This document shows, piece by piece, positions 5,268 through 16,076 of a stretch of DNA of 64,000 nt (position 1 is the first letter of the stretch; the number at the start of each line of letters is the position of its first letter). Origin of the DNA: Candidatus Lucifugimonas marina (lineage in GTDB: Bacteria > Chloroflexota > Dehalococcoidia > Lucifugimonadales > Lucifugimonadaceae); the NCBI GenBank assembly GCA_029593915.1, contig CP046147.1:1736001-1800000 (forward strand). The letters are read 5' to 3'. Under the pieces are notes generated by a model. That model searched no databases. It saw nothing but the letters and a program-made list of their open reading frames with translations, and had not been told where the DNA came from. Made by a program: the position numbers and the translations under genes.

Positions 5268-5360
5268 TGGCGGAGGGTGCGGGATTCGAACCCGCGAGGA
5301 GGCTCAACACCCCCAACCCGCTTAGCAGGCGGGCGCACTAGGCCACTATGCGAACCCTCC
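5268..5360 (-). tRNA. tRNA-Ser (anticodon GCU)
   Basis: Read on the minus strand, the acceptor stem pairs GGAGGGT with ACCCTCC, followed by discriminator G and an encoded CCA. The anticodon stem is CCCGC/GCGGG with loop CTGCTAA, giving anticodon GCT (reads AGC and AGU). The T-arm is GCGGG-TTCGAAT-CCCGC. A long class II variable arm, as required for tRNA-Ser, lies between the anticodon and T stems. The gene sits alone between nadX and the ABC transporter genes. Confidence 0.95.
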
Positions 5361-11369: not shown

Positions 11370-13430
11370 CTAGCTGAGTAACTCGACCATCTCTGCAACG
11401 CTGGTCACTGGCAATTTACAAGCGTAGTTTTCACAGACGAAGGCTGTCGCTTTTCCGTTCACCTGTTCTCTCGATGCCAGCAATGGCGAGGCAGCATCCT
11501 CGCTAGCATCTCCGTTCGAACCGGCAAGTACCGTGTTGGGTGCGAACGAGCTTCTTAGCTCGCGCTTCATATCGGCTATGACAGGATCGGCGGCATCCCC
11601 AATCAGCACGACTTCCTGAGAATTCGATCGCAAGAAGTCGACGGCTGTTAGCCACGATGTAACGGCCGACGGAGCTTGTTCCATGTGCGGAATCAGTGCC
11701 TTCATGGAAGCCTCGGCTTTTGCGGCGTAGTCGGTTTGCCCGGTGATAACGCCAAGACGTTGAAGAGCGAGTGCTGCAACTGCGCCACCCGAAGGCACAG
11801 CGTTGTCGAGCACGTCACGTGGTCGTACAAGCAGCTTCGAATGTTCCAGCGAAGTGTCGTAGAAAACTTCCCAATCTTTGTCCCAGAAGCGTTCGATCAT
11901 CTGGTCGGCTAAGGCCCGTGCCTCGTCAATATATGAGAAATCAAATGTTGCTTCGTAGAGGACCAGCAAGGCTTCGATCAGATAAGCATGGTCGTCGAGG
12001 TAGCCAAGTAATCTTGCGTCGCCCTCCGTCGCACTGGTCGCCTTCCATGTGTGGAGCAGTCTTCCCTCTGAGTCACGAACCTGGTCCAAAAGCAATCGAG
12101 CATTTTTTTGTGCGATGTCGACCCACTCGGGATTTTCGAATACCGCTCCAGCCTCTGCGAACGCCTTGAGCATCAGAGAGTTCCAAGACACAAGGATTTT
12201 GTCGTCGATTCCGGGTGCGATGCGTTTAGAACGAGCCTCAAGCAATATTTCTCGAACTCGTTCGATGTCGGCAAGCAGTTCTAGGGGTTCTTGACCCGAA
12301 CGAGATAGGAATTCCGCCTGTGATATAGGTAGGTGAAGAATATTCGAACCTTCGAAATTACCTTCCTCAGATACGCCCCAGTACGCCTTGGCAAGTTCGG
12401 CATCGGACGGTTCGAGTACCTCATCTATTTCTGCGGGAGTCCAGACGAAGAACTTGCCTTCCACTCCTTCGGAATCAGCGTCAGACGCCGAGTAGAAGCC
12501 ACCGGCGGCATGGGTCATCTCACGGGTGACATATTCAAGCGTTTCTTCCACGATTCGTCGGTAGAGAGGCTTCTTGGTTGCCTGATAGGCGTGAAGGTAC
12601 AACGAAACTAACTGAGCGTTGTCGTAGAGCATTTTTTCGAAGTGAGGAACCAGCCAAGCGTCGTCGACCGAGTAACGCGCGAATCCACCACCGATCTGAT
12701 CGTAGATTCCACCGTGTGCCATCTTCTCAAGGGTCAGATTTACGATATCTAGGACTTGCGAGCTGCCAGTTCGTTTCCAGTAGCGAAGAAGCAGTTCGTA
12801 AACCATCGGCTGAGGGAATTTCGGAGCACCCTGTGACCCACCATTTTCCTGATCAGCGTTCCCGGCTAGATGAGTAAAACTGCCGAAAATTAGTGACTCG
12901 TCGACCGTGCCATCATTCTTTTGCGGCGTCGACTGCTCACGTATGGCATTTACCACTTGCTGAGAGTTTTCCAGTAGTTCACTGCGCTTGGTGGCATAAG
13001 CATCAGCAACGGCGGTCAAAACCCGAGGGAATCCTGCCATATTCGGTCGGTCTTCAGGTGGAAAGTAGGTCCCGCCATAGAACGGCTGTCCATCGGGTGT
13101 GATGAACACCGTGAGAGGCCAGCCGCCTGAGCCAGTCATCGCTTGAACCGCAGTCATATAGATCGAGTCAACGTCGGGCAGTTCTTCACGGTCGACCTTG
13201 ATGTTGACGAATCCGGTGTTCATCACCGCTGCAATCGATTCGTTCTCGAATGACTCGTGCGCCATTACGTGACACCAGTGGCATGACGAATAACCGATTG
13301 AGAGCAATATTGGCTTGTCGAGGAGTCTCGCTGCAGAAAGAGCTTCCTCACCCCAGGGATACCAGTCGACCGGGTTGTCCTTGTGCTGCAGCAGGTAGGG
13401 GCTTGTCTCGTTCGCCAGTCGGTTGGGCAT
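11370..13430 (-). CDS. Thioredoxin-domain protein of the YyaL / SPATA20 (DUF255) family
   Basis: A 686-residue protein with an N-terminal thioredoxin-like domain and a C-terminal (alpha/alpha)6-barrel. The start [29 protein letters not shown] and the redox motif [16 protein letters not shown] near residue 48 are the family hallmarks; CQC-like segments later resemble glycosidase-like barrels ([33 protein letters not shown]). Biochemical function is unknown. It is 93 bases downstream of the thioredoxin-NHL gene on the same strand, so two thioredoxin-fold proteins are probably co-expressed. Confidence 0.92.
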
Positions 13431-13523: not shown

Positions 13524-15032
13524 TTACAGACCCGTTAATTCAAGCGGGTAAACCTCGCCCGAATTGAGCTCGATAATTTTGATCTTATGATTGTTCGTAT
13601 CGGCGACGTATATTCGATCACCTGCAATGGCGATTCCAGCAGGTTCGTTGAACTGAGCGATGGTCGAAAATCCATTCATATCGCCAGATTTACCAGAACC
13701 AGCGACTGTTTTAACCTGCAGCGATCCGATGGCGACCGATTTGATTTTGTTGTTGTATGAATCGGCAACATAGATTGTGTCTTTGCTCACTGCCAACCCC
13801 TGCGGATGCTGAAACAGGGCTTCTTTACCAACACCGTCGTAATCGCCAAAATCGAACAGCCCTTTTCCTACAAGTGTTACCACCCTGCCCTCTTCGGCTA
13901 TCGCAGACACGCGAAGCGAGCTGGTTTCGCTATCGATGAAGAACACGGCGTTGTTCGACACCTCGATTCCATACGGCTGTGCCAAACGTGCCGCATCCTT
14001 GAGATCGTCGACTATGTCCTCGCCGCCGTCACCTGCGAACGGTGCAACAGTCCCCTCGGCTATATTCATCGACCAGAGTTGGTGGAATCCGGCCATTGCG
14101 ATATACAAAGTGCCATCGTTCAACGAAAGATCGTAAGGCGAGTTCAGAGGAGCGCTGAGAGCCTCTCCGCCCTTATGTCGGTACAGTGACTGCTCGCCGT
14201 TTCCCGCTATGGTCTCTGCGGTTCCAGCGACCATGCTAACTTTGACAATCGTGTGAGTGCCGGCATCGGCGACGTACAGTGTGTCGCCATCGATCACGAC
14301 TCCTTGCGGGTTGTCGAGAAGCGGATTATCAAATTCCAGTGCTTTGAGTACGCCAGAGGTATCGCCTGTCGCCAGCGGTGATTCACCGTTACCGATGATG
14401 CCTTCGACTTTTCCTTCAAGATCTGTTATCAGCAATCGGTGATTATTGGAATCTGAGATAACCAACAAATCGCGATCAGCATCTATGGAGATCTTCCCTG
14501 GAAAAGACAGATCGGAGTCGGATTGTGACTCCGGTTGAAGATCGAGTTTACCGCGCTTGAACAAACCAGAGGGTTCGTGTTCTTCGATCATCCCGTCGAT
14601 GACTTCATCGAGCGCATCCACTGGGAATTCCCCCTCATGGCGTCCAATCACCTTGCCTGAGGGATCGATAAACATCAGCGTTGGCCAGGCTCGCGCTGCG
14701 TACGATTGCCAAATCTCAAAATCGGCATCGTTCACAACGGGGTGACCAATTCCGTATCTGCGGACAGCCTCACGGACATTCTCAGACGATTTTTCCGACG
14801 TGAATTTCGCCGAGTGCACACCAACCACAGTAAGTATGTCGGCGTACTTTTCTTCCAGCTTCCGCAACTGCGGAAGTACGTGCATGCAGTTAATTCAGCA
14901 GTAGGTCCAGAAGTGAAGAATGACTAATCGGCCGTTGAGATCACCGAGGGTTAGCGGCGATTCCGTATTGAACCACTCAAGCCCATCAGGGAACTGAGGA
15001 GCGTAGATAGTGCCCTCATATCGTGTCGCCAA
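13524..15032 (-). CDS. Probable selenocysteine-containing thioredoxin / NHL-repeat protein (NHLRC2-like)
   Basis: The obvious frame starts at ATG 14885, but the same frame continues upstream across a single TGA at 14895-14897 and encodes the missing part of a thioredoxin fold: [17 protein letters not shown], then UGA, then [14 protein letters not shown]. Members of the family read [12 protein letters not shown], so UGA replaces the first Cys of the CxxC redox pair (giving Sec-Ile-Asn-Cys). After it come [34 protein letters not shown] and then about six NHL beta-propeller blades. A TTG at 15032, after GGGGG, gives a family-like N-terminus ([17 protein letters not shown]); the stop upstream is four to six codons further. 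Total about 502 residues. The start codon is uncertain; the UGA reading is strongly supported by the hairpin at 14859-14876. Confidence 0.85.
14859..14876 (-). promoter_or_regulatory. Bacterial SECIS-like hairpin directing UGA read-through
   Basis: On the minus-strand RNA, CUUCCGC (14876-14870) pairs perfectly with GCGGAAG (14865-14859) around a four-base loop AGUU. The loop begins 26 bases after the UGA, inside the 16-37 base range of known bacterial SECIS elements, and carries a G at its second position followed by U, as SelB-recognised loops do. It lies inside the coding frame. An outer CGUA/UACG pairing (14880-14877 with 14846-14843) may add to it. Confidence 0.75.
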
Positions 15033-15143: not shown

Positions 15144-16076
15144 TTACTTATCGATAAATACTGGCTGGGTCCAAGCACGGGTACCGCGCGACGAGTAAAT
15201 CGTTGCCCGGACATAATCATCGAGCCTGGTTGGCCGATATGAAGGTGAATTACTGGTCGATTCGTGCAGCAGCCGACCGCCTGAGCCAGTGAACAAAGTT
15301 GTGTACTTCGCCTGAATTCCATCACTTGGCGTGGTCTCAGGGTCGATATCGATTTTTATTTCACGCTGGGTCGAAACCATGTCGCCAATGGTCACCCCTG
15401 TCGAGGCATAGAAATCGCCGTCTGACATCGCCTCATAAATATCCTGCTGAGCCAACTTCGCTGCTTTGACCTGCACCCAACCCCTGCCAGGATTCGATCG
15501 GTTGGCATTGAACTCGCCGGTGTAGTGATGTGAATCATCGACAGCGATTCCCCACACACGCCTACCGTTGGTGAGCAGTCTGTCCCAAATACCGTCAGTG
15601 CTGGCTTTTCCACCACCACCTGCATTGTGCGTTTCAGGATGTCCGTTAAAGACCTCCATAAACTTGTAGCCTTCGACCTGCATCATGGCTCCGTCATCGA
15701 ACGCCCAACGGAAATTTGGATGATTAATTGATGCCATTCCACCCGCAGCGATGATCGCCTCTACGTTCTCTCGCATGGCCGTGACGATATCGGTCGAATC
15801 GGAAGCTTCTACGACATGCTCAACGCCGTAGCCGTTTATATGAACCGGACCGTCGGCGTTTCGTGAAGTTACTTCTTCTCCAGCGACCAGCAGCGGCCAC
15901 TTTGCCTTCTCCGCGTCAGTACCTTCGAGAATGGTCAGATGATTATGATCTGACAGGCAAAGCCAATCATAGCCTTGCTCGTGATACCACTCGGCAACGT
16001 GCTCTGGAGATTCATCGCCGTCGCTGTTGGTCGTGTGGGTGTGAAGGTTGCCTTTTAGCCATGTTTTTGTAGTCAT
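15144..16076 (-). CDS. PHP-domain metal-dependent phosphoesterase-like protein (CehA/McbA-like)
   Basis: The 310-residue protein starts WLKGNLHTHTTNSDGDESPE, the HxH motif I of PHP hydrolases, followed by YDWLCLSDHNHLT (motif II DHN), SINHPNFRW (motif III) and VWGIAVDDSHHYTGEF (motif IV). This arrangement matches the CehA/McbA branch that binds metals and hydrolyses phospho- or ester bonds. No signal peptide is seen. It lies about 110 bases upstream of the thioredoxin-NHL gene in the same direction; the substrate is unknown. Confidence 0.85.
   Translation of the reverse strand: MTTKTWLKGNLHTHTTNSDGDESPEHVAEWYHEQGYDWLCLSDHNHLTILEGTDAEKAKWPLLVAGEEVTSRNADGPVHINGYGVEHVVEASDSTDIVTAMRENVEAIIAAGGMASINHPNFRWAFDDGAMMQVEGYKFMEVFNGHPETHNAGGGGKASTDGIWDRLLTNGRRVWGIAVDDSHHYTGEFNANRSNPGRGWVQVKAAKLAQQDIYEAMSDGDFYASTGVTIGDMVSTQREIKIDIDPETTPSDGIQAKYTTLFTGSGGRLLHESTSNSPSYRPTRLDDYVRATIYSSRGTRAWTQPVFIDK

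Follow-up and report, generated by a model that had tools for sequence, protein, structure and literature searches.

A probable selenocysteine form of the NHLRC2/SOQ1 family in Chloroflexota, with a UGA codon in the thioredoxin-like active site

Introduction

Human NHLRC2 (PDB 6gc1) consists of a thioredoxin-like domain and a six-bladed NHL propeller, with a CCINC motif in the cleft between them that faces the propeller; its function is given as unknown in a 2018 paper on the protein (PMC6107167). According to that paper, NHLRC2 is essential in mammals and is mutated in FINCA disease, and its plant relative SOQ1 regulates photoprotection (PMC6107167). The paper also reports that insulin-reductase activity was not seen for human NHLRC2, and that DTT did not reverse the change in plastid lipocalin in plants that lack SOQ1 (PMC6107167). 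The lumenal domains of SOQ1 (7djj, 7djk) have the same two-domain arrangement, and the thioredoxin domain of DipZ (2hyx, 5cyy) is related to the thioredoxin part of these proteins.

The gene described here lies in a 64,000-nucleotide stretch of the Candidatus Lucifugimonas marina genome (contig CP046147.1, positions 1,736,001 to 1,800,000), referred to as the window. Its product is very likely a selenoprotein made by SECIS/SelB decoding, a member of the NHLRC2/SOQ1 family with a thioredoxin-like domain and an NHL propeller, in which Sec46 and Cys49 form a redox pair of the UxxC type.

Reading Frame and Parts of the Gene

An earlier note on this DNA, made from the sequence alone, had proposed that the obvious open reading frame lacks the first part of a thioredoxin fold and that reading through one UGA restores the domain. 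This was confirmed at the coordinates listed in Table 1, the obvious frame being the one found with translation table 11. When TGA is translated as a residue, the frame from the TTG at 15032 yields 502 amino acids with exactly one TGA, at residue 46. The codon 45 triplets 5′ of the TGA is TTG, ATG, or GTG in 10/10 loci (the window locus and nine close relatives), and a G-rich stretch lies directly 5′ of the start codon in the same 10 loci; by this comparison, the TTG start appears conserved and supported. Pfam matches of the 502-residue protein are Thioredoxin_8 (PF13905), AhpC-TSA, Redoxin (PF08534), and NHL repeats. A search of the protein against NCBIfam returned nothing above a curated cut-off; WAxxUGC (NF041054), the only model named with a U, scored 16.7 bits against a cut-off of 300.

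Table 1. Features of the selenoprotein gene, in window coordinates.
Feature	Coordinates	Strand	Details and basis
Whole selenoprotein gene	13524..15032	-	TTG start 15032-15030, stop TAA 13526-13524; 502 residues with Sec46
Truncated table-11 ORF, product of ordinary annotation	13524..14885	-	453 aa from ATG 14885
Thioredoxin-like domain, approximately residues 19-155	14568..14978	-	Pfam Thioredoxin_8 34-128 and secondary structure of the model; domain interrupted by the UGA under table 11
NHL-repeat beta-propeller, approximately residues 172-501	13530..14519	-	Pfam NHL, model, and PDB matches
UGC for Cys49, putative resolving Cys of UINC	14886..14888	-	INC 3′ of the site in 163/163 loci
In-frame UGA, very likely read as Sec, residue 46, first position of UxxC	14895..14897	-	TGA 68 and TGC-TGT 95 among 163 loci
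Bacterial SECIS-like hairpin, 7 pairs, loop AGUU at 14869-14866	14859..14876	-	Pairing counts, folding, covariation

Fold and Family Membership

An AlphaFold model computed with 32 sequences has a mean pLDDT of 93.1 and places residue 46 immediately before a helix spanning residues 47-62. In thioredoxins the nucleophile classically sits directly before the first helix. Pro117 occupies the cis-Pro position of the thioredoxin fold and does not vary among the 32 aligned sequences. The best PDB matches of the model are SOQ1 (7djk, TM 0.93) and NHLRC2 (6gc1, TM 0.92). Both the model and the domain matches argue for membership of the NHLRC2/SOQ1 family, with a thioredoxin-like domain of the Trx8 type followed by an NHL propeller. 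The family motif CC(I/V)NC (PMC6107167) is present as CUINC, with Sec for the second Cys. The relatives have CCINC, and the UGA thus replaces the nucleophile Cys of the CxxC pair.

Compared with human NHLRC2, the window protein shows 38% identity (phmmer E 1.9e-97), but its Sec stands where NHLRC2 has the second Cys of CCINC, and it ends at residue 502, without the C-terminal beta-stranded domain of NHLRC2 (PMC6107167). Plant SOQ1 provides the best solved match (E 1.2e-104 for 7djj); in contrast to it, the window protein is bacterial and has Sec. SOQ1 proper is further marked by a HAD phosphatase domain and a transmembrane helix; the window protein gave no Pfam HAD match, and only 45 residues precede its Sec. 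The DipZ thioredoxin domain is related at E 1.7e-20 (2hyx) and 1.8e-20 (5cyy), but the match spans the thioredoxin part only (residues 10-154) and the DipZ motif is SCINC (PMC6107167).

Cysteine at the UGA Site Among Relatives

In total, 164 loci were gathered: the window gene, 80 from a contig scan with one genome per species (the best 80 of 454 matches), and 83 from 400 genomes of the phylum. One locus falls short of the codon site, and in the 163 that reach it the codon is TGA (68), TGC (68), or TGT (27), and never any other. The earlier note had placed the UGA at the first Cys of the redox pair and had proposed an alignment for Cys/Sec swaps; both are borne out, with swaps at exactly this codon (TGA in 68 loci, TGC or TGT in 95). 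The site is followed by INC in all 163 loci, which gives UINC in 68/68 TGA loci. The residue before it is Cys in 63/68 TGA loci and Ala or Gly in the other 5, and is Gly in 6/95 Cys loci. Because this preceding residue varies while INC follows throughout, the alignment indicates that the first Cys of CCINC is dispensable and that the UxxC pair is kept.

The search of the phylum (E ≤ 1e-40) found matches in 88 of the 400 genomes, comprising 58 with TGA, 26 with Cys, and 4 whose match misses the site. The TGA genomes are spread over 18 families of this Chloroflexota sample, and at 58/400 sampled genomes the Sec form is not rare in the phylum. Outside Chloroflexota, where sampling is thin (the best 80 of 454 contig-scan matches), only Cys forms were seen. 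A search of plasmids had distant relatives among its matches.

Selection was estimated against nine close loci. The ratio dN/dS is 0.055-0.112 before the UGA (7/9 comparisons computable) and 0.018-0.065 after it (5/9 computable), the remaining comparisons being saturated at synonymous sites. Purifying selection acts on the gene both before and after the UGA. These data bear on the simplest objection, that the UGA is a nonsense mutation or a sequencing error in a decaying gene from which the 453-residue ORF, or nothing, is made. Table 11 does yield an interrupted frame, and TGC and TGT are each one base away from TGA. However, TGA occurs in 68 loci whose proteins are non-identical, 58 of them in the phylum sample; the site holds only TGA, TGC, or TGT; and selection is strong both upstream and downstream. 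Decay or error is therefore scarcely credible as an explanation.

A SECIS-Like Hairpin Downstream of the UGA

In the RNA of the window gene, the hairpin at 14876-14859 pairs CUUCCGC with GCGGAAG around the loop AGUU, with 7 pairs and a G at loop position 2, and the gap from the UGA to the loop is 25 bases. This agrees with the claim of the earlier note that the hairpin follows the bacterial SECIS pattern (loop 16-37 bases from the UGA, G in the first two loop positions). The hairpin is the minimum-free-energy fold, at -11.5 kcal/mol. The further claim that loss of the Cys codon together with a hairpin is very unlikely by chance could not be justified from one sequence, as the energy of the single hairpin is ordinary for its composition (z -1.19; 26/200 shuffles fold as well). 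The significance of the hairpin was settled by the comparison across loci, not by the energy of one sequence.

Among distinct sequences, the full 7 pairs in the register of the window hairpin form in 40/50 with TGA and 0/91 with Cys. The incomplete stems among the TGA sequences comprise 6 with 6 pairs and 4 with 3 pairs, and 6/91 Cys sequences are one pair short of the full stem. When the TGA set was shuffled among synonymous codons, 7/7 pairs arose in 1.4%. Under relaxed criteria, which accept every SECIS-like stem of at least 7 pairs with a G in the first two loop bases, such a stem was found in 45/50 TGA and 5/91 Cys sequences. The loop motif CAGTTG occurs in 46 of the 50 TGA sequences. The four exceptions (L163, L169, L170, and L175) are the sequences with 3 pairs; they represent one genus of family f67 and have CGTTG instead. 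These four could form an 8-pair stem with the loop GUU in another register, which is not the predicted best fold of any of them.

Covariation was assessed in an alignment of 46 TGA sequences, from which these four were left out. In it, 98.1% of cells are paired, and sliding the partners by 1-3 columns lowers the pairing to 39-71%. Cells changed on both sides of a pair number 24, compared with 5.4 in shuffles. For four of five covariation measures, none of the 500 shuffles, which take no account of relatedness, reaches the observed value; for the fifth, the number of pairs changed on both sides (4 observed, shuffle mean 2.7), 50/500 shuffles do. All 12 loci of the nearest clade share an identical 18-nt stem-loop, and dS around it is at least 1.27 in every unsaturated comparison (12/18, against nine nearest-clade loci). 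Across loci, these patterns indicate that the hairpin is under selection.

Selenocysteine Machinery

The earlier note had stated that selA, selB, selC, and selD were needed elsewhere in the genome. The genome is a single contig of 3,094,136 bases, 93.3% complete, and all four components lie on it: a tRNA-Sec with anticodon TCA (66.4 bits, gathering score 47), SelA (513.6 bits, cut-off 268), SelB (343.9 bits, cut-off 242), and SelD (365.5 bits, cut-off 125). The SelD gene (L030:1501-2430; G000:C1:287363-288292, minus strand) carries one in-frame TGA with a stable hairpin, loop GGUCU, downstream of it, and SelD of this genome is itself a probable selenoprotein. An Rfam search of the window found only a tRNA. 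A tRNA-Ser (GCT) at window positions 5268-5360 reaches 52.3 bits on the tRNA-Sec model, so the gathering score alone can mislead.

Among the TGA genomes, SelB is found in 55/58. The three without it are 77-83% complete, and two of them have a tRNA-Sec; the third (G129, 82% complete) has neither a SelB nor a tRNA-Sec match at the thresholds used. SelB was considered as a discriminator between Sec and Cys genomes and was rejected. Because it is also present in 23/26 Cys genomes and in 310/400 overall, its distribution shows compatibility with Sec insertion rather than association. The three Cys genomes that lack SelB nevertheless have matches to the tRNA-Sec model that reach its cut-off, narrowly in two cases (48.9 and 47.0 bits), and these matches may be false, like that of the window tRNA-Ser.

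It might still be proposed that read-through places an ordinary residue (near-cognate Trp or Cys) at the UGA, or that a shorter protein starts at the ATG at 14885, nine bases 3′ of the UGA, with the hairpin serving merely in read-through or regulation; a hairpin could conceivably slow ribosomes. Such an account sits poorly with a full Sec system in the genome, with Cys as the swap partner in 95/95 non-TGA loci, and with a hairpin whose geometry fits a bacterial SECIS. A product of the internal start would also be missing the catalytic residue and the first strand of the thioredoxin fold, whereas purifying selection acts on the 44 codons 5′ of the UGA. This account is very improbable, and Sec insertion is retained as the preferred reading.

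Proposed Mechanism

The UGA, the conserved hairpin, the machinery, the selection, and the predicted fold were computed, and from them we infer the insertion of selenium at residue 46. SelB carrying Sec-tRNA(Sec) would bind the hairpin just 3′ of the UGA, and the ribosome would insert selenocysteine at residue 46 instead of terminating. Sec46, which would lie in the cleft facing the propeller, where the first helix of the thioredoxin fold begins, may then act as the attacking nucleophile, with Cys49 resolving the resulting adduct. In this way the protein could reduce a disulfide, or some other oxidised group, of a partner bound to the propeller.

A kept resolving Cys and cis-Pro are expected for thiol/selenol exchange. 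Both are present here (UINC in every TGA locus, Pro117 in every aligned sequence), and they weigh against an alternative that agrees on Sec insertion and differs on the chemistry only, namely that Sec46 is not a disulfide-exchange nucleophile and that the thioredoxin-like domain is a binding site or acts on some other substrate. The observations that NHLRC2 did not reduce insulin and that DTT did not reverse the plastid-lipocalin change without SOQ1 (PMC6107167) speak for this alternative, which is unlikely but deserves serious weight. By analogy with NHLRC2 and its reported lack of insulin-reductase activity (PMC6107167), a disulfide reductase function is not assured, and exchange at the Sec46-Cys49 pair is favoured as the probable chemistry.

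Genomic Neighborhood and Paralogues

The selenoprotein gene is flanked by a DUF255/DsbH-type thioredoxin-like gene (window 11370-13430) and by a PHP-domain gene (window 15144-16076), the latter with a weak domain match (23.3 bits, below the cut-off of 26.4). Both are also near the gene in nine close relatives. Among the 108 loci longer than 3 kb, the PHP gene was found in 10 and DUF255 in 11, the latter being 10 Sec loci (that of the window included) plus one Cys locus, L058. No DUF255 match was found in Sec locus L042, which covers 4 kb downstream. A general operon partner was considered, and none is supported by these counts; this is a weak negative, as many loci have flanks of about 1.5 kb.

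The genome also holds two Cys paralogues of the thioredoxin-like domain, L002 (G000:C1:1814928-1815323) and L003 (2760696-2761109), which have the motif TYTCVNC and no in-frame TGA. In six genomes of families f72 and f86 (G294, G252, G245, G141, G301, and G273), the matches are split in two near residue 305, a sign that the NHL propeller of these Sec members may contain an insertion.

Evolutionary History

A tree was built from 157 of the 163 loci (at least 350 aa, non-identical) by a quick search with SH-aLRT support only. All Sec forms fall on one side of a single branch (SH-aLRT 99), in a group of 86 rows (68 Sec and 18 Cys) that all belong to Chloroflexota; other Chloroflexota Cys members lie outside it. 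Mapping the Sec/Cys label onto the tree takes 6 changes, of which at least 4 are forced by starred branches. The simplest story suggested by the tree is one Sec gain followed by several losses, with repeated gains as a possible alternative.

The family f44 may preserve such a loss. Four of its eight Cys members in the tree (L127, L132, L134, and L159) have 6 of the 7 SECIS pairs, three of them with the CAGTTG loop, and all four group with two Sec members. These stems look as expected for a SECIS that is decaying after a Sec-to-Cys reversion. L064 and L067, the remaining Cys sequences with 6 pairs, also lie within the Sec-containing group.

Comparison With Described Selenoproteins

A 2026 inventory describes 119 prokaryotic selenoprotein families (PMC13188914). 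Neither "NHL" nor "Chloroflex" occurs in its text, and its family table has no row that combines thioredoxin with NHL. The selenoproteome literature compared besides it comprised a 2025 deep-Sep paper, a 2022 review, a 2008 ocean paper, a 2005 Sargasso paper, and a 2016 survey; "NHL" is absent from the main text of PMC12013277, PMC9312934, PMC2398784, PMC1088965, and PMC5029168. Chloroflexota are likewise not mentioned in the main text of those papers or of PMC13188914. Literature on individual Chloroflexi genomes does mention selenoproteins, and literature searches on selenoproteins with NHL repeat, NHLRC2, SAR202, Sphaerobacter, or Chloroflexota brought up no NHL-type selenoprotein among the matches listed.

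The nearest described entries are two generic ones, "Thiol-disulfide isomerase-like" (cd02966 in PMC13188914, pfam13905 in PMC9312934) and "Redoxin family protein" (PF08534). Both share with the window protein a thioredoxin fold and Sec in the first position of UxxC, and the window protein itself matches Thioredoxin_8 (PF13905) and Redoxin (PF08534). No listed family is named as having an NHL propeller, and the two rows of PMC13188914, with the example accessions MGB1650493.1 and HEU0032618.1 respectively, might contain the window protein. The selenoprotein family is probably undescribed, with the standard bacterial mechanism of insertion.

Significance

Taken jointly, the evidence makes it reasonably likely that this is an undescribed Sec form of the NHLRC2/SOQ1 family, probably with a single origin at the base of a large Chloroflexota clade and several reversions to Cys, one of which left a family with a damaged SECIS. 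On the same joint reading, the Sec form would be evidence from nature that catalysis throughout the family, human NHLRC2 and plant SOQ1 included, uses the second Cys of CCINC as its nucleophile. Sec is generally retained where it does redox chemistry. Because it is retained here across 18 bacterial families, it marks the exact atom to test in the NHLRC2/SOQ1 family, and the Sec form would be a more reactive natural variant for trapping substrates.

When the UGA is annotated as a stop, the N-terminal part of the protein and its active site are lost from annotation. Ultimately, the finding would add a widespread selenoprotein for Chloroflexota, and it points to the atom that may do the chemistry in a poorly understood family that includes one protein linked to human disease and another to light protection in plants.
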